Below are positions 36,742 to 55,005 of a stretch of DNA of 64,000 nt, piece after piece (the stretch's first letter is position 1; each line of letters opens with the position of its first letter). The notes under the pieces are model-generated. The model ran no database searches, had not been told where the DNA came from, and worked only from the letters and a program-made list of their open reading frames with translations. Source of the stretch: Alicyclobacillus sp. Its GTDB lineage: Bacteria > Bacillota > Bacilli > Alicyclobacillales > Alicyclobacillaceae. Both the position numbers and the translations under genes were made by a program. The stretch lies in assembly GCA_023511295.1 (NCBI GenBank), contig JAIMBT010000003.1:1-64000 (forward strand), written 5' to 3'.

Positions 36742-37629
36742 TCAATTCCCCGCGGACGCAGTCGAATCCTGCCGCCCGCCGATAGAGACATCCGGAAACG
36801 AATGGGTCGCCACCCAGTCGCACAGCCGGATGAATCGAGACGCCGCCAGCAGCGCGTGGAGCCTGTCCTCGGTCCGCTGCAGTCCGTGGTAGTGCGCGAA
36901 CCGGACCAACGGGCTGCAGGGCAGCCGCGGCTGACGGGGGTCCACCTCCCACGGGTGGACGTACACCATCGCCGGCGCCGTCTGGTTGTGCCAGGCGACC
37001 AGCCGCCGCAGGATGGCCGTCGGCCACACCCGGAGATACAGACCGCCGGCAAACGGAATCCGCAGCGGTCCTCGGCGGATGACGGTGGACGGCACCTCCA
37101 CCAACTCGAGCCGAACCCCGCCGATGACCGGGTGGAACGGTTCCGTCGGCGCTTGGGGAAATCCCGACAGCGGCGTCCGAAATGGCTGCAAGCTGGAGTC
37201 GACGCGGTACCCGACTTCCTCCAAGGCCTGCAATGCGCGGACGTTTTGCGGCGACAATGACCAGGACGGAGCGCGAAACGCTTGCACCGCGCACCCGGCC
37301 AATTGTTCCAACAGGTCCTTCGACCAGCGGGCGTCCGCGGCAATCTCCTCCAAGGTCATCCGCGTCCACATCTGATGCCATCCCCCGTGCGATGCCACTT
37401 CGTGTCCACGGGCGGCAATCTCCCGCACCAGTTGCGGGTGTTCCTGGGCGACGCAGCCGAGGACGAAAAACGTGCCTTTGTGCTGGTACTGATCAAACAG
37501 GTCCAAGAGCCGCAGGGTGTTGTCGACGACTCGGTCCGGGAAGGTGCACCAGGTCGAGATCGGAAAATCGAAATCGCTGGTCTGGTACCAATCTTCCACG
37601 TCCACCGTGAGCACGTTGTCCACAGCCAT
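36742..37629 (-). CDS. Polysaccharide deacetylase (XrtA/DUF3473 type)
   Basis: A 295-residue NodB-fold carbohydrate esterase, family CE4-like. The N-terminal LTVDVEDWYQ carries the catalytic Asp. GHEVASHGGWHQMW supplies the two metal-binding His, and FRAPSWSL the third motif. The C-terminal part, with GLYLRVWP and MVYVHPWEVDP, fits the DUF3473 extension seen in exosortase-linked deacetylases. No signal peptide is visible, so deacetylation may take place on a cytoplasmic, lipid-linked intermediate. In Pel systems the deacetylase is part of PelA; here it is a separate protein with another architecture. ATG 37629; the gene lies 26 bases before the flippase gene. Confidence 0.88.
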   Translation of the reverse strand: MAVDNVLTVDVEDWYQTSDFDFPISTWCTFPDRVVDNTLRLLDLFDQYQHKGTFFVLGCVAQEHPQLVREIAARGHEVASHGGWHQMWTRMTLEEIAADARWSKDLLEQLAGCAVQAFRAPSWSLSPQNVRALQALEEVGYRVDSSLQPFRTPLSGFPQAPTEPFHPVIGGVRLELVEVPSTVIRRGPLRIPFAGGLYLRVWPTAILRRLVAWHNQTAPAMVYVHPWEVDPRQPRLPCSPLVRFAHYHGLQRTEDRLHALLAASRFIRLCDWVATHSFPDVSIGGRQDSTASAGN

Positions 37630-37644
37630 CTCCCCTTTGTCACG

Positions 37645-38943
37645 TCAGCGGTGAATCAAGTCGCGCCACGTGTCCGGCCGCAACGCCAGGCGCGCGAGCG
37701 CCGCAAGATATCCGACAGTGGGTAGCGGGTCTCGCCAGGACAGGATATCGTCGCGGACAAACGTCGGCCGGTCGTCCGTCCTCAACAAAGACGCGCGATG
37801 GTCGTCGGACGCAGTCGACGGGCCCCATCCGGCTTCTTGCATCCGCCCCTCGCTGGACGCCGTCCACCGCAACCGCGCCCAGCGCGCCAGCGCGTCCCCC
37901 GGCAGCCAGGACGTGCAGCGCACCCCAGGTGGATACACGAACTGCTCCGACACCGGGCGTCCGAGGGCCACCTGGTAGTACAGCCACGGGAAGTCGATGC
38001 CCGCCAGAATCGCGCAGTGCAGCGAATTCCAAAAGCGCGTGTTTGCTTCCATGAACCGCAGATCCCCGGTTCTCCCGTCGCGCATGAACTCGAATTCAAT
38101 CACCCCGCGCCACCGCAGGGACTCCGCCATCCGCCGACACTGGTTCAGCAGCGGTGCATCGACCACACTCTCCTGTGCCGTGCTCGGACCGTGCGGGTAC
38201 GGGAAGTGGCGCAGCTCTCGCTGGATGAACCCGGCCACACAGTGGCTCGAGGCGTCGAGCAGCAAGCACACGTCGATCCGCTCGCCCGGCCACACGTACG
38301 TCTGCACCATCTGGCCGCCGTCCCCGCCCGCCCCGCGCTGCAGGGCTGCCTGCAGTTCGGACCCGGTACGAACGACGCGTAGACCGCGGGAACCGGAGCC
38401 GCGCCGCGGCCGGACGACGAGGGGCTGCGGCAAGCGCTCACCCGCATCCACATCCGCCCACCCAGGGCGGGTCCGGCCCTCGAGCCCGTGCCACGCCATG
38501 TCTTCCCCCGCATCACGCCACCAGGTCTCCGGCGGCATCAAACCGCAGGCCGCCGCGGCCGCCGCGGCCCGCGCTTTGTCCCGCATCGCCTCGTACGCGT
38601 GCTCGGGGGGCAGGACACACCGGATGGTCGACGACAGCTGTGCCTCGGCGCGAACGACGACGTCCATCGCGGCGTCGTCCATCCACAGCCACACCGCGGT
38701 GTGTCGTCGGGCCGTCGCCTCCACCCACTGCAAAAAGCCGGACGGGTCCCTCGCCGGGTCCGGATAACGGACCCCACCGGTGCAGAAGCGCGTCCACGCG
38801 GACGGATTCGGCCGGCCGACGGCCTCCGCCACGCGAACGGGGATACCGTGTCGACCCAGGCTGCGCGCGGCAGCCAGCGTCTTGCGCAACAAGCCGTCCG
38901 TGAGGAAGACCGGCACCGGGGTTGACGGCGTCTCCATTCGCAT
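37645..38943 (-). CDS. ATP-grasp enzyme of an exopolysaccharide locus
   Basis: A protein of about 432 residues with a pre-ATP-grasp N-terminal domain (PVFLTDGLLRKTLAAARSLG) and an ATP-grasp core. It has the ATP-contact strand PLVVRPRRGSGSRGL, the lid region MVQTYVWPGERIDVCLL, and the metal-binding FMEANTRFW. ATP-grasp enzymes ligate a carboxylate to an amine or thiol; in polysaccharide loci they may attach amino acids or modify sugar acids. The substrate is unknown. Two ATG starts (38943 and 38937) are possible and the ribosome site is weak. It starts four bases after the stop of the upstream membrane-protein gene. Confidence 0.78.
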   Translation of the reverse strand: MRMETPSTPVPVFLTDGLLRKTLAAARSLGRHGIPVRVAEAVGRPNPSAWTRFCTGGVRYPDPARDPSGFLQWVEATARRHTAVWLWMDDAAMDVVVRAEAQLSSTIRCVLPPEHAYEAMRDKARAAAAAAACGLMPPETWWRDAGEDMAWHGLEGRTRPGWADVDAGERLPQPLVVRPRRGSGSRGLRVVRTGSELQAALQRGAGGDGGQMVQTYVWPGERIDVCLLLDASSHCVAGFIQRELRHFPYPHGPSTAQESVVDAPLLNQCRRMAESLRWRGVIEFEFMRDGRTGDLRFMEANTRFWNSLHCAILAGIDFPWLYYQVALGRPVSEQFVYPPGVRCTSWLPGDALARWARLRWTASSEGRMQEAGWGPSTASDDHRASLLRTDDRPTFVRDDILSWRDPLPTVGYLAALARLALRPDTWRDLIHR

Positions 38944-38947
38944 GCAC

Positions 38948-40909
38948 CTACTTCGTCTGTGGAATCGCAATCTCGTACACGATGAGGTTTTGATCTTCGT
39001 AGTAGACGTGAAGCGGATGATAACGCGCGTACGTGGTGAGCCACGTGCGCAGTGCCCTCTGGTCCTTGTACCGCTGCGCGTACAACGGTGCCTCGATGGG
39101 ATAGATGGAATTCGTCGGGCTGACCTCGAAGATCCGCTTTGGGTAGTAGATGAACACGTACGGCGCGAGTTGCGGGTCGCGCTGCGACTGACCCACCTTC
39201 GTGAGCGGGGGCTTGGCCGGATCGTACGTTTTCACAAACTGGCCGATATCCATGCGGTATCCGTTGCCGAGGACCAGCGCGTACTCTTCGTTGTTGGCGA
39301 CGAGCATGTAACCGCGGTACCGGAACGCCTCGTTGATGCGCAGGTAGACCGATACATCGTCCGCGAACTGCAGTTTATAGGGCACAATCGGCTGACGTCC
39401 CGGGCCGGCAAGAGAGACTGCGAACAGCCCACTCGCAACGCCAAGGCGGAGCCAAGGCAGCCGTCCGAGGACGCGTGCGTAGGTCATCAACACATGGACG
39501 GCGAGGCCCACCACCAGGGGCTGTACGATGGCCCACATGTCCAGCGCGCGTGCAATCAGAACCACGCTGTGGGTGACCGGGCCCCCGGCAAAGTACACGA
39601 GGAACATCGCGAGTCCGAAAATCCCGCCCGCCACCCACACCCGGTGCGGCCCACGCCGCAACACTTCGCGCGCGGAAGCGGCGAGTAGCACGGCGATGGC
39701 CGCAACGCCCAACCAGTCGGTGGCATTCAGTGCGGGCGTCGTCACGGCCGTTGTCGCCGTCGCCCCGGCGAAGGACGTGCCGCTCGAATTGAATCTCCGC
39801 CCAAGCGCGTAGCCCACGACAACCGGGGCCACCGTGACACCGGCAGATGCCACGCCCCGCATCACCACCTGCCACGTGCGCCGCCGAATGAACGGTCCCG
39901 GCAGGCACCAGTGCGCGACGAGCACAGACCCACACCCGATGAGCGCGAGGATGTAGGCCAAGGGATGGGTCAGCCCGGTGACATAGACCCCGGCCGCTGC
40001 GGTCTCCAGGTCCACCGGATGGCCAAATTCGAGAAACCGGTCGAGAAACACAAGCGACGGGAGCACAAACACAAACCCGAACTCCTGCGAGTTGGTTGCG
40101 GCCTGTCGAACCCAATCGCCGCCGAGCAACAGGTAACCGAACAGGCCGTACAGCAGCATCCCGACCAGCGGCGCATCGCGACGGCCGGTCCAACGTTGGA
40201 GCGTATAGAAGATGCCGAGGGTGATGAACACCGCGTTCAGCGGACCGACGTACTTCAAGATGTACAGAGCGTCGATGAAGGCGAACTTGCCGAGGATGCT
40301 CATGTAAAAATACATACCCTGGGGGTAGATGCCATCGTGAAACAAGATCCGCTCGTCCACGTACTTCATCCAGGCGAGCGTCACGTACCCATCCGACATC
40401 GCCGGCGCCGGGTTGGTCAGCGCATCGGCGCTCCGGACGTACACGACCATCCCCAGCACGGCGAGCACCAAGCAGACAAACGCGACATCGACCGGGCGCC
40501 ATCCCTTCCGCCGCGCGCGAAACCGCCCGCCCCACTCGCGGACGGACAACCGGGCACGGCGCCACGCCCGCGTCAGCAGGTAGCGAGATTCGATGGTGTC
40601 GTAGAACAGCGCCATCGCGGTGGCTCGCACGGTATGGCGGGTTGGTCCACTGCGGCTGCGCCGGAACAGCGCCACGAGCAGGACCACGCCGAGGAACCCC
40701 AGCGCTTCGTAGAGCTTCAGGATGAGCAGCACGTAACCCCACAGGATGACGAAGCACACCATGCGGATATAGCGAGAGATGGCGTCGTCCAGTCCGGAGC
40801 CCGGGGCGGCCCGAAACAGCCACCGCGGCATCAGCACAAACACGAGGACGAACGACAGACCAAAGTGGAACAGGTGAAAGGCTTGGTTGGCCAGCGATGA
40901 GTACGCCAT
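38948..40909 (-). CDS. Large membrane protein of the exopolysaccharide locus, GT-C-like
   Basis: A 653-residue protein with some 13-15 membrane segments. A basic cytoplasmic loop (90-135) lies after the first segments. The extracellular-side loop after the segment near residue 165 carries LTNPAPAMSDGYVTLAWMKYVDERIL, and the C-terminal 140 residues form a soluble domain (EEYALVLGNGYRMDIGQF, YYPKRIFEVSPTNS). The layout recalls GT-C fold glycosyltransferases, but no DxD-like catalytic pair can be assigned with confidence. I do not recognise a named family. The gene is packed between the ATP-grasp and PelG-like genes, so a role in polymerisation or modification of the polysaccharide is likely by context. 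Confidence 0.65.
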   Translation of the reverse strand: MAYSSLANQAFHLFHFGLSFVLVFVLMPRWLFRAAPGSGLDDAISRYIRMVCFVILWGYVLLILKLYEALGFLGVVLLVALFRRSRSGPTRHTVRATAMALFYDTIESRYLLTRAWRRARLSVREWGGRFRARRKGWRPVDVAFVCLVLAVLGMVVYVRSADALTNPAPAMSDGYVTLAWMKYVDERILFHDGIYPQGMYFYMSILGKFAFIDALYILKYVGPLNAVFITLGIFYTLQRWTGRRDAPLVGMLLYGLFGYLLLGGDWVRQAATNSQEFGFVFVLPSLVFLDRFLEFGHPVDLETAAAGVYVTGLTHPLAYILALIGCGSVLVAHWCLPGPFIRRRTWQVVMRGVASAGVTVAPVVVGYALGRRFNSSGTSFAGATATTAVTTPALNATDWLGVAAIAVLLAASAREVLRRGPHRVWVAGGIFGLAMFLVYFAGGPVTHSVVLIARALDMWAIVQPLVVGLAVHVLMTYARVLGRLPWLRLGVASGLFAVSLAGPGRQPIVPYKLQFADDVSVYLRINEAFRYRGYMLVANNEEYALVLGNGYRMDIGQFVKTYDPAKPPLTKVGQSQRDPQLAPYVFIYYPKRIFEVSPTNSIYPIEAPLYAQRYKDQRALRTWLTTYARYHPLHVYYEDQNLIVYEIAIPQTK

Positions 40910-40969: not shown

Positions 40970-42568
40970 TCACGACAACAGGTACAGGTGATAGTCGAAG
41001 CGGCGCATGACGCGCCGGATGTTGCGGCTGGTGAGGATGGCAAACAAGACGCTACCCACGAATACACCCCACACGGCATCCGCGTATCCAAACCACCGAC
41101 TGAGCAGGAAGCCGACACCCATGTTGGCCGCCACCGCGATGGCGAGAGGCCGCACGACCAGTTCCGGGCGACTGAGGGAAAACATCGTCACGGCATTCAG
41201 GAGCCCGAGGGATAGGATGCTGTACGCGGCGAGCCCGACGGCGAACACGTAGTTGCTGTTCGGGGTCAGCGACACGGACTGCGGCAACCGCATCAGGTAG
41301 TGGTCCAGCAGCCACTTGACCCCAAAGTAGACAAGCAGGGCGCTGCCGGTCGCCACCACGGCCATCCAGCGGATGCCCCGTTGGTAGGCGCGGAGGAAGC
41401 GGCGGTTCATCACCTCCGACTGCTGGCTCGCATAGTGCCGTTCCGCCTCCAGCGCGTCGTTCATCCAGCGAGAAACCAACACCTCACTCAGCCCGAGCGG
41501 CAGGACCAGCGTGACCAGCGCAAAGTCCAGTCCGACCTCGTAATCGCCTCGGAACCAGATGAAGTACGCGACACCGGGCGCATTCGTGGACCAAGCGATG
41601 ACGCGGTCGACGAAGAGCAACAAGAAGTACAAGCAGCCGTAAACGAAGTACGGCAGCGTCGAGTAGACCGAGATGCCGACTCGCGGCAGGTGCGGCTGGA
41701 TTCCGTGTTCGAGTCGGTTCGGCGACCGTCGAAACAAGTATGCGACGACCAGCAGCCCCACCACAGAAATGCAGGTCATTGCCGCCAACTGCGCGACGAT
41801 GATGTTCAGGTGCAAGCGGACGAATGCCACCCAGACCACCATAATCCCCGCCACGAGCAACCCGGTGAACATCAGCTCGCTCTTCAGTACGTACATGACG
41901 GTGACCGACAGCCAGATGGCATTCAGCACCACGTAAAACGCCAGCGTAACCCACAACATCCCCGGCGGCAACACAGGGAACAGCGCGTTGACGCCGACCA
42001 GCAAGCCCGAAACTCCCAGCGAGGTTACAATCCCCGCCGCGATGTGGTGAAACGTCACCCGCTGCGCCATCTTGTAATACTGTTGAAAGATGTAGAAGAA
42101 CGCCCGCCGCGCGATGGCCTGCATGAAGCCACCGACCGTCAGGAAACTGAGAATGGTTCCGATGGCAATCGCCGTCGCCAGGTTGACTGGTAAAAACTGA
42201 TAGGACCAGAGAGAGAAGTGCAAGGTCAACATCGAAACGATGGAGAGCACCATCGGAAGCGCGAACACGATGCCGCGCAAAAACTGGCGCGTCGCCTCGG
42301 CGAACCGGCGCCAAGCCGACGCGGGCACCACGTAGTCGCCGCTGCGGACGTCAATCGCCGGTCGCTCCAGTTCATAGAGGCGGCGAGCCAAATCGAACAC
42401 GTCTTCGGCGCCGTAGCGCTGCCTGGCGCGAGCGTCGGTCCAGCCGAGGGACTCCAACAAGGCGGTCACTTCGTACACGTCCTCGGGATGCAGGTGCAGT
42501 TCGTGGATTGCGTCCAGTAAAGGGGCCCAGTCCGCTTCGTCGTGGCGCAACCGAAACTCGCGCGGCAT
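40970..42568 (-). CDS. pelG: PelG-like polysaccharide transporter with N-terminal extension
   Basis: A 532-residue protein whose residues 85-532 form about 12 membrane segments in the PelG pattern of the MOP superfamily. Examples are FALPMVLSIVSML, YFVYGCLYFLLLFVDRVIAW and YEVGLDFALVTLVLPLGLSEV. PelG moves the growing polymer across the membrane with PelD, PelE and PelF. Unlike the Pseudomonas protein (about 456 residues) it has about 85 extra soluble residues at the N-terminus (LHPEDVYEVTALLESLGWTDA), possibly a docking domain. ATG 42568 shares one base with the stop of the preceding gene (TAATG). The name is by similarity of pattern and by its PelF neighbour. Confidence 0.75.
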   Translation of the reverse strand: MPREFRLRHDEADWAPLLDAIHELHLHPEDVYEVTALLESLGWTDARARQRYGAEDVFDLARRLYELERPAIDVRSGDYVVPASAWRRFAEATRQFLRGIVFALPMVLSIVSMLTLHFSLWSYQFLPVNLATAIAIGTILSFLTVGGFMQAIARRAFFYIFQQYYKMAQRVTFHHIAAGIVTSLGVSGLLVGVNALFPVLPPGMLWVTLAFYVVLNAIWLSVTVMYVLKSELMFTGLLVAGIMVVWVAFVRLHLNIIVAQLAAMTCISVVGLLVVAYLFRRSPNRLEHGIQPHLPRVGISVYSTLPYFVYGCLYFLLLFVDRVIAWSTNAPGVAYFIWFRGDYEVGLDFALVTLVLPLGLSEVLVSRWMNDALEAERHYASQQSEVMNRRFLRAYQRGIRWMAVVATGSALLVYFGVKWLLDHYLMRLPQSVSLTPNSNYVFAVGLAAYSILSLGLLNAVTMFSLSRPELVVRPLAIAVAANMGVGFLLSRWFGYADAVWGVFVGSVLFAILTSRNIRRVMRRFDYHLYLLS

Positions 42569-43515
42569 TACACGTCCGCCTCGTCGAGCACCATGTTCAC
42601 AATCAAATCAACAAGTTTCCCTTCCCGCTCGGCCATGCCAATGGCCGACTCCGTGATGACGTCGCCCCGCCGCAACAAGAGGTTCCCGCGAGCGTCCAAC
42701 AGGTCCTTGCCCGCCCGCTTTCCGACGATGTAGCGGTACTTCATCCGGTCGACCTCGCTCGCATCCCCGCGCGGCCACGAAGCCTGCTGGACAGGCGCCG
42801 ACGCAACGCCCGGCGAAGTCGCCGGTCGCGCTTGGCCCTGCTCGGACGCAGCGGTCCGGCTGGCGGCCGCAACCTCGTCCTGTCCGTCGACGACCACAGG
42901 AACATCGCCCGGTCCGGCCATCCTCTCTGTCGGGGCGGGCGGCACGGGAGCTTCCTCCCCGCGCACCAGCGCGATGGCGGCCCGGACGTCCTGCAGCAAT
43001 TGCTCCAAGTCGGCCAGGGACACCTGCATCATGAGACGACGGATTTCCCGCAATGCAGGGGACGGTGCAGGCGTAACCCGCTCGCCCACCGGAGGAGTGG
43101 CCACCGCACGCTGTTCCCGGGCATCGGGTACGAAGATCCGAGCTCCCGGCGCCAACCTGGTCCCCACATCGCTTTCCGCCCGTGCACCAACCGACCCCGT
43201 CCCCGCGTGGTCCTGCAAGCTCCATGCGGCCCGGGTCCGACGCGCGTCGTCGCCGTTGTCTCGACCGACTCCGTCCATCTCCGAGCCCGAGACGGGCAGA
43301 TGACGGCCGGTATCCGACGCGTTCAGCGACGTCCCCGAGGCTTCCGCAGGCGCTCTCGGCGGCGGGTCCGACAGCAGCCCCGATTCCCCTTGCAGCGGGA
43401 ACAGCGTGAACGTCCGAGGGGGCGCCACGCGCAAGGGGCGGCTCGGCACTTCCGCGCGCGGGCGCGTCAACGCCTCGATGTGCCGTTCAATCTCACTCCA
43501 CATATGCACCCCCAC
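42568..43515 (-). CDS. Hypothetical protein between PelF and PelG, disordered with conserved C-terminal module
   Basis: A 315-residue protein. Residues 1-250 are Pro/Ala/Gly/Arg-rich and mostly disordered, apart from a short helix (EIRRLMMQVSLADLEQLLQDV). The last 55 residues form a compact module (KYRYIVGKRAGKDLLD, NLLLRRGDVITESAIG, AEREGKLVDLIVNM). This resembles small modules found at the N-terminal edge of signalling and polysaccharide proteins, but I cannot name it. GTG 43515 has GGAGG seven bases upstream. It takes the place where Pel loci usually carry an accessory or membrane protein. A scaffold linking PelF and PelG is an inference. Confidence 0.6.
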   Translation of the reverse strand: MGVHMWSEIERHIEALTRPRAEVPSRPLRVAPPRTFTLFPLQGESGLLSDPPPRAPAEASGTSLNASDTGRHLPVSGSEMDGVGRDNGDDARRTRAAWSLQDHAGTGSVGARAESDVGTRLAPGARIFVPDAREQRAVATPPVGERVTPAPSPALREIRRLMMQVSLADLEQLLQDVRAAIALVRGEEAPVPPAPTERMAGPGDVPVVVDGQDEVAAASRTAASEQGQARPATSPGVASAPVQQASWPRGDASEVDRMKYRYIVGKRAGKDLLDARGNLLLRRGDVITESAIGMAEREGKLVDLIVNMVLDEADV

Positions 43516-43557
43516 GGTACTGCCTCCTCCGGTGCCAGCGGAAGCCACTCCGTCCGC

Positions 43558-45591
43558 TCAGCCGACCAACCATTGGTACTTCACCTGCGCCAGGGCCGCG
43601 AGGTCCGTCTGGCCCAACGCCCTGTACAGCCGCTCCAGTTCCAGACAGAACACCGGTAGGGCCGGATTGTCCGGCCAGACGGCCATGGCCCGCTGTAACT
43701 GCTGTACCGCGGCGGGCAGGTGGCCCGCGTCCGCCAGCGCAAACGCCCGCTCCGCCAACAGTCGCTGGTGCTCCGCGAGCATTGTCCGATGTCGTCGAAA
43801 ACTGGAGTGTAGTATTCTACGCGTTTGCGCCGTCTCCTGCTTGGTCGCGTAGACCCGCGCAATCTCCGCCATCAGCACAGGAACCGCTGAAGATCTCGGA
43901 GCTGCCGCGACGGCGAGCGCCCAGGATTCCGCGGCCGCATCGACCGCTCCTGCGGCGGCCAGTGCGTATCCGCGCTCCGCCGCCAGTTGCTGTTCACGGA
44001 GGGCAGCGGCGTCGAGGAGCCGCGGGTGATCCGCGCCTTGACGAAGTGCGGGTATGGCCCTCTCCTCCGCTTCCGTTCCGTGCGGACGGCGCGCACCGGC
44101 TGGGAACTGCCCCAGCCCGAGCTTGATGTACGTCTTCAGGTACGTGCCCAGGTTCTGCTCCAACGTGAAACGTCCCAGCGCTCGCTCCCGAGCTTGCTCG
44201 CCGAGTTCCTCGCGCTCTTCCTCATTTCGGAGCAGGCGCACGATGCCCGCTGCCAAGGCACCGGGGTCCCCCGGTGGCACGAGAATGCCCGTATCCCCCA
44301 GCGCTTCCGGAATCCCCCCCACGTCCGTCGAGACAATCGCCTTGCCCGCGAGCATCGCTTCGACGATGGAGTACGGAAAGCCCTCCGAGACACTCGAGAG
44401 CACCACCACATCTGCATGCCGATAGGCCGCGGTCACGTCGTCGAGCTGTCCGTCAAAGTGAAACATCTCTTCCATGCCGAAGCGCTGCACGAGACTGCGA
44501 CACTGTTCGTAATACGCCGGGACCGATACCGCGCCGTAGACGTGAAACTCGACCTCGGGTACGTCGTCCCGCACGAGTTGCGCTGCCCGGATGAGCCCGA
44601 GGATGTCCTTGATGGGGTCGATGCGCGCCACGGCCACCACCGTCGGCCGCGTGTTGCGGATGGCACCCGCCGCCTGTGTGAACACCCGGTGATCCACCCC
44701 GTTGTAGATGACTTCAATCCGCTCATGCCGATCTGTCAGCGCGCGCTCCCAGCGCGTGTTGTACGCGCACACCGGCGAAATCTGGTCCGCCAGCGCGTAG
44801 TTCACATCGACCACGGCGTGGATCAGCCGGATGAGAAACGTGTTCAAAAAGCCGGGATACCCTCGTTTCGCCAGAGACAGGTACTGTTCCCGCAGGTAAA
44901 TCCCGTGCTCCGTCAACAGGAAGGGCGTCCCGTACTTCACTTTCGCAACCACGCAGGGCAAGCCGCAGAATGCAGCCGCCGACGCGTGCACGACCGTGGT
45001 CCGGGGAATCGGGGTGTTGAGGACCGTGAAAAAGCGGTAGATCCAGCCGAGGCTCTGCAGCAGTGAATACATGTCGGGCTGCGTGAACGGCGATCCCGCA
45101 TCCGCCACCGCGCCGTCTATCAACTGCTTGTACGCATCCCAAACGAGGGGCGATTTAAACGCGGCTTTGTAGTCGTACTGTGCGAAAAAGTCGTAGAGTT
45201 CGACGAGCAAGTCCGCAAACGCAAACGGTTCATGTTCCACACGGACGATATGCTCCACCAATCGCCGAAACATCGGCAAGAACTGATCTTCGACAACGGC
45301 CTGCGTGGTCCGCTGCTTGGCCAAGTACGTACTGCTGAACATGCGGTCGAGGTGCTCGCTCGGTTCCTCCGTTCCCCAGAGCGGCACCCGAATCAACTGA
45401 GCGTTCCGCGGCAGCTCGTACTTCTGAGCGATGAACGGGTCCATGGTAATGGCGAAGACCGTGTAGTCGACGTCTTTGAGGCGGCGAACCAGGGTGTCGC
45501 ACCACGTGCTGACACCGCCGTGAGAGAACGGATAGGTTCCCTCGGTGGTCAAGAGCACCGAGAGCTTGCCTGCATTCGACAGCCCGGACAT
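43558..45591 (-). CDS. pelF: PelF-like glycosyltransferase with C-terminal helical-repeat extension
   Basis: A 677-residue protein. Residues 8-490 are a PelF-type GT-B enzyme: the DUF3492 start (VLLTTEGTYPFSHGGVSTW), LTEHGIYLREQ, VCAYNTRWE, VAVARIDPIKDI, and the donor-site SSVSEGFPYSIVEAMLAGK with the E-x7-E motif. PelF polymerises UDP-sugars to Pel. Residues 500-677 are helical and Ala/Leu-rich with TPR-like spacing (AERGYALAAAGAVDAAAESW, AERAFALADAGHLPAAVQQL). PelF normally ends after the GT domain, and TPRs are the hallmark of PelE, so this may be a fusion. ATG 45591 is chosen (AAAAGGAGG nine bases upstream) over 45633. Confidence 0.85.
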   Translation of the reverse strand: MSGLSNAGKLSVLLTTEGTYPFSHGGVSTWCDTLVRRLKDVDYTVFAITMDPFIAQKYELPRNAQLIRVPLWGTEEPSEHLDRMFSSTYLAKQRTTQAVVEDQFLPMFRRLVEHIVRVEHEPFAFADLLVELYDFFAQYDYKAAFKSPLVWDAYKQLIDGAVADAGSPFTQPDMYSLLQSLGWIYRFFTVLNTPIPRTTVVHASAAAFCGLPCVVAKVKYGTPFLLTEHGIYLREQYLSLAKRGYPGFLNTFLIRLIHAVVDVNYALADQISPVCAYNTRWERALTDRHERIEVIYNGVDHRVFTQAAGAIRNTRPTVVAVARIDPIKDILGLIRAAQLVRDDVPEVEFHVYGAVSVPAYYEQCRSLVQRFGMEEMFHFDGQLDDVTAAYRHADVVVLSSVSEGFPYSIVEAMLAGKAIVSTDVGGIPEALGDTGILVPPGDPGALAAGIVRLLRNEEEREELGEQARERALGRFTLEQNLGTYLKTYIKLGLGQFPAGARRPHGTEAEERAIPALRQGADHPRLLDAAALREQQLAAERGYALAAAGAVDAAAESWALAVAAAPRSSAVPVLMAEIARVYATKQETAQTRRILHSSFRRHRTMLAEHQRLLAERAFALADAGHLPAAVQQLQRAMAVWPDNPALPVFCLELERLYRALGQTDLAALAQVKYQWLVG

Positions 45592-45659
45592 ACCCGCTTC
45601 CTCCTTTTCGACGCCGCGACGGACCATGCTCATCCCCTTCAGGCAGCGCTGCGACAGGT

Positions 45660-46001
45660 TTACTTCGAAGGTATCACGACGTCCTGCAAGATCTCAGCAA
45701 CCGTCGCGACAAAGTCACCCGCCGCGCCCCAGTCGAAGTTGAAGATGAGCCCCTCCGACGAACCCGTTGCGACCGCGCGAACCACAGTCGGACCGTGCAC
45801 GTTCTCGCAGGTCACCACCAGCGCAGCGCGGTTCTTGGTGCGAAAGAAGTACTTTTCGAACACCAGCGTGCCGAAGCCGCGCCCATCACCGAGATCGTGA
45901 AACTCTTCGTGCACCAGGTCCGCATCCTCGTCATTTCTCACCATCGACAGCGCCTGCTCCGGCGACGTATCGACGTGAAGTTCCAACTTTTTGTCACCCA
46001 T
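45660..46001 (-). CDS. DUF6054-like small protein
   Basis: A 113-residue soluble protein with no signal or membrane segment. It contains alternating strands and a helix (GFGTLVFEKYFF, RAALVVTCENVHGPT, LIFNFDWGAAGDFV). The FNFDWGAA-DFV pattern and size suggest the DUF6054 group of unknown function. It is the last minus-strand gene before the exopolysaccharide locus (69 bases upstream of pelF) and lies downstream of an MFS gene. Whether it belongs to either unit is unclear. It is probably a real gene by composition and reading-frame quality. Confidence 0.6.
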   Translation of the reverse strand: MGDKKLELHVDTSPEQALSMVRNDEDADLVHEEFHDLGDGRGFGTLVFEKYFFRTKNRAALVVTCENVHGPTVVRAVATGSSEGLIFNFDWGAAGDFVATVAEILQDVVIPSK

Positions 46002-49853: not shown

Positions 49854-50177
49854 TTACAGGGCGGGCTCAATCTCACTCACGACATCCCGCTTCGGCCGAT
49901 AGCCGACGAGCTGTTTGACGACCTCCCCGTTCTTGAACAGAAGCAGCGTAGGTACGCCCATGATGCCGAACTGACTCGGCGTGTTCGGGTTCTCGTCGAT
50001 ATCCACCTTCGCCACGACGAGCTTATCGCCGTAATCCTCCGCAATCTCGTCCAGCACTGGCGCCATCATTTTGCACGGTCCGCACCAGGTTGCCCAGAAA
50101 TCCACCAGGACGGGTTTCTCCGACCCCTGCACGAACGACGCGAAGTTCGCGTCTGACAGGTGTTCGATGTTCGCCAT
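49854..50177 (-). CDS. trxA: Thioredoxin
   Basis: A 107-residue thioredoxin. The WCGPC active site (Cys32, Cys35), the buried Asp in VLVDFWATW and the cis-Pro in GVPTLLLF are all present. It reduces protein disulfides with electrons from thioredoxin reductase and supports ribonucleotide reductase. ATG 50177 matches the family start (ANIEHLSD); a GTG two codons earlier is possible. A SigA-type promoter lies 127-155 bases upstream and a strong terminator follows, so it is monocistronic. Confidence 0.95.
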   Translation of the reverse strand: MANIEHLSDANFASFVQGSEKPVLVDFWATWCGPCKMMAPVLDEIAEDYGDKLVVAKVDIDENPNTPSQFGIMGVPTLLLFKNGEVVKQLVGYRPKRDVVSEIEPAL

Positions 50178-50303
50178 CGTCACTCCACTCCCTCACCCAA
50201 GTTGCAGAGAAGCGCTGCCAGCGCGTCTCTGCGACAATGGTTCGCTGCCTGGACGGCGCAGTCCTGCCGACGTTTGCAAAAGCCCAGCACAACTTACATT
50301 TTT

Positions 50304-50332
50304 ATAGTACCAGAACGCCCTTCGGTCGTCAA
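50304..50332 (-). promoter_or_regulatory. SigA promoter of trxA
   Basis: On the minus strand TTGACG, 17-base spacer ending in TGG, then TACTAT. Good match at both boxes plus the extended -10. Confidence 0.7.
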
Positions 50333-50441
50333 ACCGCCATCTCTCACATGTTCTCTCCGCTCCGCGGCTTGCATACGGTTCCGCGCGTGTGGGTACGTTA
50401 CCCATCAAAGTCTGCATTTGGACGTCCAAGGGGGGATCCGG

Positions 50442-52094
50442 TTGCGCCGCCAGTGGTTCTCACGCAGGTCCGCGCCGAGTGTGACGCACACCCGCATTCG
50501 TGCTCTCCGGTGCCCGGATTCGTCATCGGCCGGTCCGGATGGCCGCGAGGTCTCACGCGACGACCGCACGAGCGACGCGCTGTCTGGACACCTCGCGGAG
50601 GATATTGACTCCATCCGGTCGGTCATCGGCGCCTCCGGGGACGTCGTGTTCCGCCCGTTTGAGCTGTTTGACGGGCGGCCCGCGTACCTCGTGTACATCA
50701 GCGGGCTCTCCGACGAACAGCAGATTGACAGCGACATCTTCAAACCGCTCACGAAGGGCGGTACGACGGTCCACTCCTACACCGCGAACGCGCCCGCAGA
50801 CCTGCGCACCATCGGCGACGCATTCGTCACCGCAGGCTCCACGGAACAGGTCGCCACACTCGAGGAGGCGCTCCATCACGTCGTGGTGGGTCTGCAGGTG
50901 TTACTTCTGGTGGACGGCGAACCGCATGGGCTCGCCATCTCCATCGGCGGCGGCGAACAACGCGGTGTGGAAGAGCCGGAGACCGAAGCGGTCATCCGCG
51001 GACCGCGGGAAGGTTTCACGGAGGACCTGCGCACGTCCATCACGTTGCTCCGCCGCCGCATTCGCTCCACCGAGCTGGTCGTCGAATTTCGCACCATCGG
51101 CCGCTACACGCAGACCAAGGTCGCACTCTGCTTTCTGCGCGACATCATCAACCCCAGCTTGGTCGACGAGATGCGGCAGCGACTCGACCGGATTGACATC
51201 GACGCCATCATCGACTCCGGCTACTTGGAGGAACTGGTCGAGGACAACGCCTTTTCGCCGTTTCCGCAGCTCCAGAACACCGAACGTCCCGACGTGGTGG
51301 CGAGTGCCCTGCTCGAAGGCCGGTTGGCGCTCATCAGCGAAGGATCTCCGTTTGCGTTGATTGCACCCATTGACCTCTGGGGTGCCCTGCAGGCCGCCGA
51401 AGACTATTACGAGCGCTATCCGATTGTCAACTTGATCCGCTGGCTCCGCTACCTGTTCATGGGGATTGCCCTCTACTTGCCGAGCCTGTACGTGGCCATC
51501 ACGACGTTCCACCAGGAGATGCTGCCCACCAAGCTCCTCATCTCCATCGCCGCGGCGCGGGAGGTGACGCCGTTCCCGGCCCTGGTGGAGTGTCTCCTGA
51601 TGGAGGTGACGTTCGAGGCCCTGCGTGAAGCCGGCGTCCGGCTGCCGAAGACCGTCGGTTCCGCCATCAGCATCGTGGGTGCGCTCGTCATCGGCCAGTC
51701 GGCAGTCGAAGCGGGGATTGTCTCCGCCCCGATGGTGATTGTCGTCGCCATCACGGGCATTGCGTCGTTCGTGATTCCGCGGTTCAGCTTCGCCATCGCC
51801 ATCCGCATGTTGCGCTTCGCGATGATCCTCGCCGGCGGTCTGATTGGCGTGTTCGGCATCGTGATGCTGACGGTCGCGGTGGTGATTCACCTGAGCAGCC
51901 TGCGCTCCCTCGGCGTGCCGTACCTGCAACCGGTGAGCCCGTTCAGCCGCAGTTCTACGGGCGATGTCGTGCTCCGGGCGCCGCAGTGGGCCATGCGCCG
52001 ACGGCCGGAACAGACGAGCCGCCAGAACGTCCGCCGGCAGTCGGCCGCGATGGCACCCGACCAGCGCGTGCCGCGGTCGAAGCGGAACACGTGA
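50442..52094 (+). CDS. GerA-family spore germinant receptor subunit A
   Basis: A 550-residue protein of the GerA/SpoVAF family. It has a soluble N-terminal region (about 1-270, with DSIRSVIGASGDVVFR and the conserved RSTELVVEF), then five to six membrane segments (about 310-500; GIALYLPSLYVAITTF, REVTPFPALVECLLMEVTFEALREAG). It is the receptor subunit that senses germinants at the spore inner membrane. TTG 50442 has AAGGGGGG six bases upstream; the longer frame from 50160 would overlap the trxA control region. It is followed by C, D and B subunits in one operon. The germinant is unknown. Confidence 0.88.
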   Translation: MRRQWFSRRSAPSVTHTRIRALRCPDSSSAGPDGREVSRDDRTSDALSGHLAEDIDSIRSVIGASGDVVFRPFELFDGRPAYLVYISGLSDEQQIDSDIFKPLTKGGTTVHSYTANAPADLRTIGDAFVTAGSTEQVATLEEALHHVVVGLQVLLLVDGEPHGLAISIGGGEQRGVEEPETEAVIRGPREGFTEDLRTSITLLRRRIRSTELVVEFRTIGRYTQTKVALCFLRDIINPSLVDEMRQRLDRIDIDAIIDSGYLEELVEDNAFSPFPQLQNTERPDVVASALLEGRLALISEGSPFALIAPIDLWGALQAAEDYYERYPIVNLIRWLRYLFMGIALYLPSLYVAITTFHQEMLPTKLLISIAAAREVTPFPALVECLLMEVTFEALREAGVRLPKTVGSAISIVGALVIGQSAVEAGIVSAPMVIVVAITGIASFVIPRFSFAIAIRMLRFAMILAGGLIGVFGIVMLTVAVVIHLSSLRSLGVPYLQPVSPFSRSSTGDVVLRAPQWAMRRRPEQTSRQNVRRQSAAMAPDQRVPRSKRNT

Positions 52095-52106
52095 GGAGGG
52101 GTCCCT

Positions 52107-53300
52107 GTGCGGCGTACGGTAACGGCGCTCCTGTTGTGCGCCGTGTGTTTGGTGAACACCGGGTGTTGGGATTCCACCGAGATCGACCGCCTGGCGATTG
52201 TCCCAATGACGGGCGTGGATCTCGCGCCAGACGGCCACTCCGTTCTCGGCACGCTGCAGATCATCCGCCCGAGTGAACTCGGGACCGCAGGCGGCGGGGC
52301 GCCAGCGACGTCGACCGGCAGTCCAGACACGTTCATCGTCGAAACCGAGCAGGGTTCGACCAATGTCGATCCGCTGTCGCGCGCCCGCGCGAAGCTGTCC
52401 CGGCGGCTGTTCATGGGGCACCGGCGCGTGATTGTCATCGGAGAAGCGTACGCCCGCGAAGGGATGGGCGGCTTGATAGACGAGATTCTGCGCAACCCGT
52501 CGTCCCGCCTGCGCACGTACCTGGTGATTGCCCACGGTGCGACCGCACAGTCGGTCCTCCAGCTGGCCTACCCGCTCAACCGGCTGCCGAGCGATGCCAT
52601 CGTGGAACTGGAGCAAGGAGGAACTGCGTTGGAGATGGACTCGCGCATGTTCGCGGAAAGTTTGGCCGGGTACGGTGACCCCTCGGCGCCCGGCCTCGAC
52701 GTCGTACCGCCCGTTCGGGAGAACGAGGCCCCGTCGTTTCAGTTGGACCGCATCGCCGTGTTTCGCGAAGACCGACTCGTCGGCTGGCTGGACGGTCCGC
52801 AGTCTGACGGGTATCTGTGGATTCTCGGCAAACTGAAGCGCAAGGACGTCACCGTGGCCATCCCTGGGCATCCAGGGGCGGTGAGCGCGCGCATCGGAAC
52901 GACGCGATCGAAGCGGTGGGTGACATGGGCGCACGGCAATCCCCAGTTGAACATCGACGTGTCGGCCAACTTCGACGTCACGCAAAACACCACGGACCTG
53001 ACGTTCACCACTCCGGCGGAGGTCGACCTCCTGAAGTCAGCCATCGCGAACCACCTGCGCAACCACATGGCGCAGGCCATGAACGCGCTCCAGAAGGACT
53101 TTCAAGCGGACCCCTTGGACTTCGCCGACGCGGTGTACCGGAGCGCCCCGCAGCGGTGGCGGCAGATGCAGCCGCAGTGGCGGCAGGTGTACAAAGAGGC
53201 CGCGGTCGCGTACAGCACGCATGTACACGTGCGAAACACGGGCCTCCTCAGCACCCTCCTGCCGCACACGACGTCGAACGCGCCGGGGCGCGTCCAATGA
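52107..53300 (+). CDS. GerC-family spore germination lipoprotein
   Basis: A 397-residue Ger(x)C lipoprotein. The signal peptide ends in VNTGCWDSTEID, where Cys20 is lipidated and the CWD..EI motif is diagnostic of the family. Three domains follow, with typical sequences such as RRLFMGHRRVIVIGEAYA and, at the C-terminus, QWRQVYKEAAVAYSTHVHVRNTG. It forms the receptor complex with subunits A and B on the outer face of the inner spore membrane. The GTG start is preceded by GGAGGGG, 12 bases after the A-subunit stop. The stop overlaps the next ATG. Confidence 0.9.
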   Translation: MRRTVTALLLCAVCLVNTGCWDSTEIDRLAIVPMTGVDLAPDGHSVLGTLQIIRPSELGTAGGGAPATSTGSPDTFIVETEQGSTNVDPLSRARAKLSRRLFMGHRRVIVIGEAYAREGMGGLIDEILRNPSSRLRTYLVIAHGATAQSVLQLAYPLNRLPSDAIVELEQGGTALEMDSRMFAESLAGYGDPSAPGLDVVPPVRENEAPSFQLDRIAVFREDRLVGWLDGPQSDGYLWILGKLKRKDVTVAIPGHPGAVSARIGTTRSKRWVTWAHGNPQLNIDVSANFDVTQNTTDLTFTTPAEVDLLKSAIANHLRNHMAQAMNALQKDFQADPLDFADAVYRSAPQRWRQMQPQWRQVYKEAAVAYSTHVHVRNTGLLSTLLPHTTSNAPGRVQ

Positions 53301-53485
53301 ACGGCGTGTTTTGGTTGCTCGCGGTCGCCGTCTGTGCCGCGGTCGTGGACCTCCGCCGCCTCGGGCAGCAACAGCCCGTGCGGGGGCGCATCGTCTACGC
53401 CGTCCTCTTCGGCATCGGGTTTGTCGCGCTGGCAATGTACACCTTGAAACTGGGGCTGCCGCCGATTCCACTGCTGCGCATGTGA
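53297..53485 (+). CDS. Small two-helix membrane protein (germinant receptor D-type subunit)
   Basis: A 62-residue protein with two membrane segments (residues 2-18, VFWLLAVAVCAAVVD, and 34-52, VLFGIGFVALAMYTLKL) and a basic loop. It is encoded inside a germination operon with a 4-base overlap of the GerC stop (ATGA). Small two-helix D subunits next to gerA-type genes are known in Bacillus and modulate receptor response. The identification rests on size, topology and position. Confidence 0.72.
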   Translation: MNGVFWLLAVAVCAAVVDLRRLGQQQPVRGRIVYAVLFGIGFVALAMYTLKLGLPPIPLLRM

Positions 53486-53532
53486 CCGAACGCCAGGAGA
53501 ACCCGGCTCCGACAACAAAAGGGGGTTGCCTC

Positions 53533-55005
53533 GTGGGGAATGCCACATCGAGACCTGCGGTGAACGCCACATCGAGACCGGTGACGATTTCCGCCTTGCA
53601 GTTTTACATCGTGGTCATCGCCTCCACCACCGCCTTCGGCCACTTTGTCTTCATCCACCTCGCCCTGATGAAGGCGGGGCGCGATACGTGGGTCGCCCTT
53701 CTGGTGGCGTGCGCGCTCGGGGGCCTCAACGCGTGGTTCGCCCTGTGGCAAGCCGGTCGCGCTCCCGGGCAATCGTTCGCCATGTTCGTTCAATCGGCAT
53801 TGGGCCCCTGGCTCGGCAGTCTCGTCGGGGCGCTGTACATCGCCTACTTTCTGGTCGTCGCCGCGCTCACGATGAAGGTGCTGACCGACTTTCTGTCCAT
53901 CATGTACCCGACCACCCCGCCTGGCATCTTCGTCTTCTCGGTGTTGTTCGTGGCCGGCTGGGGGTGCTACAAGGGACTCGAGGTGATCACCCGTACGATG
54001 CAAGTCATCTTGCCGGTGTTGATTGCGATGGGCGTCGCCGCCAGCTTGCTCTCGCTCAAGGACAAAGATGTCTCGCGGCTGATGCCCGTCCTGCAAAACG
54101 GCTGGCCATCGGTCTGGGGTGCCGCCCTCGTGTTTCTCGCGATGTTCGCCGAGATGGTGGTGTTCCTGAACGTCACCAACCACGTCAATCAACCGGCGCA
54201 GCTGCACCGTCTCTCCCTCGCCTGGATAGGGGTCACGGCGTTGATGTTTCTCGGGCCTGCAACCGGACCTGTCATGATGTTCGGCGAACAGGTCGCGCGA
54301 ACGTTGGCGTTTCCGACCTACTCCGAAATTCAGTACCTGCACATCCGGAATGTGGTCGAGCGCCTGGACCTGATGGGGATTCTGCTGTGGGGTTTTGGAA
54401 GTTTTTTCCTCGTCGCCGTGTACCTGTTTGGCGCGAGCAAGTGGACCGCGGAACTGGTGGGGGTCGACGAAAACCTGTTCGTGCTCCCGCTGGCGGTCTG
54501 CGCAGGCGCCATCACGCTGGGACTGGGACAGGCGTCGCGGGAAGACGCGTACGCCTTCCTCGGGGGTACGTATGTATACATCGCAATCGCGATGGGCATC
54601 GTCCTGCCCTTGTTGGTGAGCGCGGTCGCTTGGATGCGCAAGACGGTGAGCTTGTCACCGGTTGGTGGCGCGGCCGGGAACGGCGGGCCCGGGAGCGCCT
54701 TTGGCGGGAGCATGAACACGACAGGAGGACAGGGGGGAAGTGTCGGCAGCGCAGGAGGACAGACGCAAGGCCAGCGTCCAACGGACCAGGGAACGCAGGA
54801 TGGTGGGCAAGGTTCAGGGGCGCACGGGCCCTCGATGGACGCGTCGCGCGATTCCGCGCCGGACCCGCACGCGGACGCGACCCGACCGCCTGGGCAGGGG
54901 CCGACCCGTGCATCTTCCCACCCGTCGGACACGGACGCCGAGCAGCGGTTGCTGCACAGCGGCGTCAAAATCCGCCGACGGGTCCGTGCGAAGCCCTCCC
55001 AGTAA
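53533..55005 (+). CDS. GerB-family germinant receptor permease with long hydrophilic tail
   Basis: A 490-residue protein. Residues 15-375 form about ten membrane segments of the amino-acid/polyamine/organocation type used by GerB subunits (TISALQFYIVVIASTTAFGH, FLVVAALTMKVLTDF, EMVVFLNVTNHVNQP). It binds the germinant. Residues 380-490 are an extra Gly/Gln/Ser/Pro/Asp-rich tail ending in a basic patch (GVKIRRRVRAKPSQ), not usual in GerB (about 365 residues). GTG 53533 has AAAGGGGG seven bases upstream; GTG 53483, overlapping the D stop, is a possible earlier start. A short duplication (NATSRP twice) lies at the N-terminus. Confidence 0.85.
   Translation: MGNATSRPAVNATSRPVTISALQFYIVVIASTTAFGHFVFIHLALMKAGRDTWVALLVACALGGLNAWFALWQAGRAPGQSFAMFVQSALGPWLGSLVGALYIAYFLVVAALTMKVLTDFLSIMYPTTPPGIFVFSVLFVAGWGCYKGLEVITRTMQVILPVLIAMGVAASLLSLKDKDVSRLMPVLQNGWPSVWGAALVFLAMFAEMVVFLNVTNHVNQPAQLHRLSLAWIGVTALMFLGPATGPVMMFGEQVARTLAFPTYSEIQYLHIRNVVERLDLMGILLWGFGSFFLVAVYLFGASKWTAELVGVDENLFVLPLAVCAGAITLGLGQASREDAYAFLGGTYVYIAIAMGIVLPLLVSAVAWMRKTVSLSPVGGAAGNGGPGSAFGGSMNTTGGQGGSVGSAGGQTQGQRPTDQGTQDGGQGSGAHGPSMDASRDSAPDPHADATRPPGQGPTRASSHPSDTDAEQRLLHSGVKIRRRVRAKPSQ

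Follow-up and report, generated by a model that had tools for sequence, protein, structure and literature searches.

A 64,000-nucleotide stretch of Alicyclobacillus sp. DNA (the window, meaning the whole stretch analysed) holds a PelF-like glycosyltransferase gene that runs well past the usual end of the enzyme, with no pelE gene in view. A first-pass annotation of the window read about 180 extra residues, encoded at 43558-44091, as TPR-like repeats that may replace PelE. It suggested that a PelF-PelE fusion would explain both facts, and it named a TPR profile search, structure prediction and a look for homologues with a separate PelE as ways to check the idea. The co-occurrence of PelF and PelG is usually taken as evidence of a Pel system, and the question raised by this locus is whether that is what we see here, and what the tail on PelF is, where it came from and what it might bind. 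In the relevant passages of published work, the Gram-positive Pel operon is given as pelDEADAFG, with a synthase complex of PelD, PelE, PelF and PelG (PMC7112168, PMC13254593), and PelE as a predicted hub for protein interactions in the PelDEFG complex (PMC12345266, PMC13254593).

The PelF-like enzyme and its C-terminal tail

The pelF gene (43558..45633, - strand) encodes a protein of 691 aa with Pfam DUF3492 and GT4 domains, which matches the NCBIfam PelF model (NF038011) over residues 26-500, scoring 154.8 bits (cut-off 100). Its glycosyltransferase core, as delimited by NCBIfam, Pfam, alignment and AlphaFold2, spans residues 25-507 (44113..45561, -), and everything past about residue 507 is additional to that core. 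The pair E417-x7-E425 is invariant in an alignment of 61 relatives, and we take its spacing to be that of the GT4 E-x7-E motif. The enzyme is probably a builder of a surface sugar polymer in this Alicyclobacillus sp. On the same strand, 27 bases upstream of pelF, lies a gene for a DUF6054 protein (45660-46001, -; Pfam 7.2e-16), and ORFs on the + strand at 50160-55005 resemble, judged by eye, a spore-germination receptor operon of GerA, GerC and GerB types.

The interval 43558-44091 (-) does delimit a C-terminal extension, comprising the last 177 codons (residues 515-691) and the stop codon of the ORF at 43558-45633. Since the NCBIfam match ends at residue 500, about 185 residues lie beyond the glycosyltransferase part, close to the original estimate; the first 30 or so form a disordered linker (residues 510-538; 44020..44106, -; pLDDT < 50), and the repeats themselves occupy residues 542-690. 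The AlphaFold2 model, made with the relatives' alignment, has a mean pLDDT of 89.3, with values of 82-97 for blocks of the TPR part. Together with a sequence profile of the tail, its helices define two modules of two TPR hairpins each. Module 1 covers approximately residues 542-614 (43792..44010, -), with predicted helices at 542-560, 564-577, 584-597 and 601 to about 614, and module 2 approximately residues 615-690 (43564..43791, -), with helices from about 615 to 635 and at 639-652, 659-672 and 676-690. A 35-residue helix (601-635) joins the second and third TPRs; read as two helices, it gives four hairpins over residues 542-690. Structure prediction thus returned four TPR helix hairpins and no unrelated fold.

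Sequence comparisons point the same way. The tail profile (A5) was built from 48 one-module tails of relatives with the window tail left out, and it matches the window tail twice, at residues 534-603 (47.0 bits) and 611-691 (57.1 bits). The whole window tail scores 107.1 bits against this profile, whereas the best of 2000 composition-preserving shuffles reaches 10.8. The two modules, about 70 aa each, also align with each other (score 95, against 58 for the best of 5000 shuffles), and the two repeat units quoted as similar at first pass are equivalent parts of them. Because shuffles score far lower, Ala/Leu richness alone is insufficient to account for the tail signal, and we rejected a low-complexity artefact. 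At E<=0.01, Pfam TPR_14 matches 37 of the 48 related tails (the L053 tail, for instance, with 30.8 bits against a cut-off of 23.5); by itself, the window tail stays under every Pfam TPR gathering score, the best being TPR_9 with 18.1 bits against 35. The best PDB matches of the tail profile are designed TPR proteins (1.4e-48), and the TPR repeats of O-GlcNAc transferase are also among its matches. A Foldseek search with the whole PelF model is uninformative on the tail, since all 50 listed matches are GT4 enzymes. Taken together, profiles, shuffles and the predicted model indicate that the extension is a disordered linker followed by four TPR helix hairpins in two modules, and the TPR-like nature first proposed for it is borne out. 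Several polar or charged positions are conserved across the 48 tails (Q15 and K77 in 39 each, E57 in 36, E74 in 34, Q37 in 30 and R39 in 29), which fits the expectation for a binding surface.

PelE and the branch of tailed PelFs

To place the tail relative to PelE, the Pfam PelG model was run on 299 genomes of the class as a way to collect true pel loci; 38 scored above the cut-off, and 13 loci were fetched. Two operons from among these loci, selected by eye and read as pelD-pelE-pelA-pelF-pelG, served as references for labelling the genes, and the names rest on the published pelDEADAFG order (as given in passages of PMC7112168), on plasmid-annotated PelF and PelG and on the Pfam PelG search. 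PelF and PelG were labelled in 13/13 loci and all of PelE, PelF and PelG in 12/13; in the thirteenth, L152, PelE was matched later by a PelE profile (3.9e-56). The 12 true Bacilli PelEs are membrane proteins of about 300 aa. Homologues with a separate PelE therefore exist, but they sit in pelDEADAFG loci whose PelF lacks a tail, and the tail profile matches no ORF in any of the 13 true pel loci.

The PelE profile (12 rows) finds PelE in 4/4 control genomes that were not among its sources, at 6.5e-56 to 9.9e-111. At E<=0.001 it finds PelE in 0/18 other genomes (the window's own Alicyclobacillus sp. genome, 13 with a tailed PelF and 4 with the tail-less form of the Alicyclobacillaceae); the strongest of the weak matches has E 0.0036. 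Among all ORFs of 80 named loci, 12 first relatives and the window, no PelE was found outside true pel loci at E<=0.05. The remark that no PelE gene is visible here is thus true of the entire assembly, within the sensitivity of this profile search.

Although PelE is missing from the genome, sequence comparison does not support the view that the tail is PelE fused to PelF, and the two are better read as having independent origins. The tail contains no hydrophobic membrane segment by the Kyte-Doolittle measure: its best 19-residue mean is 1.31, against 1.98-3.0 for N-terminal segments in 12/12 PelEs. An hhalign comparison of tail and PelE gives a probability of 20%, with E 0.0011 and 8% identity over 61 columns, and only 3/12 PelEs themselves match Pfam TPR_14. 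In the 10 fetched pel loci with a readable five-gene order, pelA separates pelE from pelF, so that no simple read-through fusion is on offer. A search of the loci for the reverse event, a separate TPR gene beside a tail-less PelF, was negative, the tail profile matching no further ORF with E<=0.01.

The distribution of the tail on a tree is also informative. Scanning named genomes with profile A1 and taking the best 80 of 120 relatives gave 80 loci, of which 79 have a callable PelF (L066 was left out); among these 79, a tail of more than 75 aa is present in 59 and absent in 20. A quick IQ-TREE analysis of 95 glycosyltransferase cores, with the near-duplicates L029, L030, L032, L035, L100 and L102 dropped, places the tailed rows in one 63-row branch made up of 62 tailed rows and the tail-less L088 (SH-aLRT 92, not starred). 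The tail label changes twice on this tree, apparently through a single gain in a branch of Bacillota PelFs and a single loss. Rows of the branch are from Bacillota, plus one unassigned bacterium. Its tail-less neighbours come from Acidobacteriota, Cyanobacteriota, Chloroflexota and Campylobacterota, and the outgroup, nine PelFs of plasmid or true pel-locus origin, meets the tailed branch only at the root. PelE and the tail are both absent from the loci of tail-less members of the wider lineage.

Most tails have a single module. Two are present in the window, L028, L029 (= L045), L032 (= L049), L086 and L090, and as L086 and L090 branch elsewhere on the tree, there were probably two or more doublings. 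In L030/L046 and L031, the linker before the single TPR module is much longer and of low complexity, in tails of 133 and 224 aa. Four genomes from one genus of the same family (L036-L039) carry another PelF-like and PelG-like pair, tail-less, on a separate branch and without the partner gene described below.

The gene cluster and the candidate partner gene u326

The genes 3' of pelF are tightly packed on one strand. The nearest, u326 (42568..43548, -), begins 9 bases beyond the pelF stop codon and encodes a protein of 326 aa whose homologues are found beside tailed PelFs. It is followed by genes for a divergent PelG-like membrane protein of 532 aa with an N-terminal extension of about 75 aa (40970..42568, -), a large membrane protein of 653 aa that belongs to no family and is conserved in most related clusters (38948..40909, -), an ATP-grasp protein (37645..38970, -; Pfam ATPgrasp_Ter 2.3e-7) and a polysaccharide deacetylase (36742..37629, -; Pfam DUF3473 5.7e-33 and Polysacc_deac_1 9.7e-23).

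Profile comparison indicates that the 532-aa neighbour is a remote PelG homologue. Pfam PelG (PF16933) has 0 matches in the window genome and does match the Thermotoga maritima control, and the homologue of the PelG-like protein in genome G067 matches it at 7.3e-6. Aligned by hhalign with true PelG, the PelG-like family scores 94.1% (E 1.2e-7, 405 columns), compared with 0.2-0.3% for two further membrane protein families from the cluster. The N-terminal extension is present in 53/55 tail-bearing and 14/16 tail-less gene pieces and in 0/11 true PelGs; since it occurs in tailed and tail-less loci alike, it is a poorer partner candidate for the tail. A PelD profile (A3) gives 4 matches in the window genome, of which the 3 listed all fall in its epimerase-like N-terminal part, and no control matched in the Pfam PelD search, so PelD is only tentatively read as absent.

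The u326 protein has no Pfam or NCBIfam match. Its predicted model is confident only at about residues 262-322 (pLDDT 95-98 for 271-320) and mostly of low confidence elsewhere, and this part coincides with a conserved C-terminal mini-domain, residues 258-326 (42571..42777, -), seen in alignment A10 and in the AlphaFold model. In the family as a whole, a conserved C-terminal domain of about 70 aa is usually preceded by a coiled coil, and some members have a DivIVA-like start. With a profile made from the C-terminal 69 residues of 37 family members, an ORF with the partner domain is found in 59/59 tail-bearing named loci; matches to the 37 source proteins follow from how the profile was made, but the remaining matches and the absences do not. 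The same profile finds none in the 20 tail-less named loci, drawn like the others from the best 80 of 120 relatives, although some tail-less loci have little downstream sequence (under 500 bases in L108, L118 and L124, about 2.4 kb in L097). It is likewise found in 0/13 true pel loci, 0/3 plasmid loci and 0/4 tail-less Alicyclobacillaceae loci. The gene is not fixed in position, lying upstream of pelF in L094 and L100-L102 and on the opposite strand in L105. Across 101 relative genomes, a similar partner profile scores E<1e-22 in 9, exactly those with a tailed PelF; weak matches occur in four other genomes, none stronger than 6e-10, with a second weak match in G065.

The tail-less L088, nested in the tailed branch, has no partner gene in its 17-kb locus under either the standard code or table 4; as a metagenome assembly, it lends weak support to the link between tail and partner. 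Much of the PelG-like gene of this Bacillota assembly (L088:9620-11373) forms an open frame only when TGA is taken to encode Trp, and one TGA falls at a conserved Trp position (SLWSY), a pattern that would reflect either a recoded organism or sequence errors.

We rejected PRC-barrel as a name for the partner domain, since Pfam PRC matches 4/37 whole partner proteins and 0/48 of the domains alone. The domain has a weak structural match (best Z 7.3) to a small element of RNA polymerase beta, and its sequence profile matches 3e7h at 2.1e-6; Foldseek of the domain gave no match under 1e-3, and the polymerase likeness may be only a common arrangement.

Readings of the tail

The window cluster shares with the Pel synthase the order of a PelF-type glycosyltransferase and then a PelG-type membrane protein, along with a TPR-type hub. 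It differs in that its genome has no detected PelE, PelD was not found, and the TPRs are on PelF itself; its PelG is divergent, falls below the Pfam cut-off and has an extra N-terminal domain; and it includes a partner gene family that is absent from true pel loci. We therefore regard it as a known kind of device, the TPR hub of an exopolysaccharide synthase, in a new arrangement. The joining of a TPR array to a glycosyltransferase also recalls O-GlcNAc transferase and other TPR-glycosyltransferases. O-GlcNAc transferase presumably differs in both glycosyltransferase family and domain order, leaving a resemblance by TPR only. Gram-positive loci with only pelF and pelG have been recognised (PMC7112194, legend to S3 Fig iii) and likely include relatives of the window's cluster type, although the passages of that paper on such loci mention neither a TPR tail on PelF nor a partner gene. 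Judged by title and abstract, none of the open PMC papers found on the subject describes a TPR tail on PelF.

Our preferred reading, on which our confidence is evenly balanced, is that the cluster encodes a non-canonical Pel-related synthase in which the TPR arm of PelF docks on a u326-type partner, a PelE-like role of independent origin. PelF, by analogy with its family, would polymerise or extend a sugar chain in the cytoplasm, and the adjoining PelG-like protein would take the chain across the membrane. In place of PelD and PelE, the enzyme would use its own arm, a flexible linker of about 30 residues and two 70-aa modules of two TPRs. Co-occurrence suggests that this arm most likely binds the u326 product, and that u326 would hold PelF at the membrane beside the PelG-like protein. 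The tail would then be the TPR interaction hub of the synthase, doing by another route a job similar to that predicted for PelE in the PelDEFG complex. The original proposal that the tail replaces PelE may stand in this loose, functional sense; as a statement of descent from PelE, it is not supported.

Other explanations must be weighed against this one. In a true fusion, an ancestral PelE would have lost its membrane part, and its TPR part would have become attached to PelF. TPRs are indeed present and PelE absent, and hhalign, by its E-value, aligns the tail with the TPR region of PelE, but the low probability and identity are what any two TPRs might show, true pel loci do not have pelE adjoining pelF, the tail lacks a membrane segment, and the tail-less members of the tailed PelFs' branch have no PelE in their loci. 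We consider fusion very improbable. A functionless, low-complexity Ala/Leu extension in a GC-rich genome deserves practically no credence: the sub-threshold Pfam scores of the window tail taken alone are outweighed by conservation across Bacillota, the distance from shuffles and the predicted structure.

It is harder to set aside a tail that docks PelF on the PelG-like exporter or the large membrane protein, with u326 a mere operon companion. Genes for both membrane proteins are present in nearly all tail-bearing clusters, although the PelG-like gene with its extension, unlike the u326 family, is equally at home in tail-less loci, and we think this alternative rather unlikely. Somewhat less likely still is a tail that serves PelF itself, through self-association or by guiding the growing polymer as TPRs of other glycosyltransferases do. 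The linker would permit this, module number varies between one and two while the family is kept, and O-GlcNAc transferase TPRs are among the PDB matches, yet the pairing with one particular neighbour gene would be left unexplained. That pairing must itself be read with care: because the tree has essentially one gain, tail and partner may be merely co-inherited in one operon without binding. For docking on u326, the preferred reading, the u326 family provides a concrete candidate partner. More broadly, a wide Bacillota branch named PelF by curated models has no detectable PelE, its own TPR arm and its own partner gene, and PelF annotations in this branch should therefore not be read as Pel production.

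The relatives also link an exopolysaccharide synthase to DivIVA-like scaffold proteins. An exopolysaccharide cluster with DivIVA-like proteins of its own looks unusual, and by title and abstract the only open PMC paper found for PelF together with DivIVA is on mycobacteriophages. It is possible, if rather doubtful, that these clusters represent a second, widespread class of Bacillota Pel-type synthase, placed by a scaffold rather than switched by PelD and PelE, in which the TPR tail of PelF would grip a coiled-coil, DivIVA-like partner able to sense the shape of the membrane, so that polymer is made at defined sites such as the septum or pole; the window's lineage would have lost the DivIVA-like parts and doubled its TPR array. 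Neither the window nor the near relatives L028-L032 have a DivIVA-like part, and u326 lacks a DivIVA-like start; we rejected a DivIVA-like scaffold as a component of the window's own system because no such ORF or u326 start is present there. Elsewhere, many partner relatives have a DivIVA-like motif and a coiled coil at their start, and most related loci have an additional short DivIVA-like ORF between pelF and the partner gene. In many Bacillota relatives, an ORF of about 140 aa starting KRSxxGYxxxxV lies directly 3' of pelF (for example, L053:9778-10200, L061:6934-7359 and L080:9800-10222). Pfam DivIVA (PF05103) matches 10/36 of the short ORFs (best 4.2e-11) and 5/37 partner proteins at E<=0.01, and a DivIVA-like profile made from 36 of these ORFs, and thus partly circular, has matches in 45/59 tail-bearing named loci. 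In L085 and L089, a single ORF combines the DivIVA-like start with the C-terminal domain of the partner.
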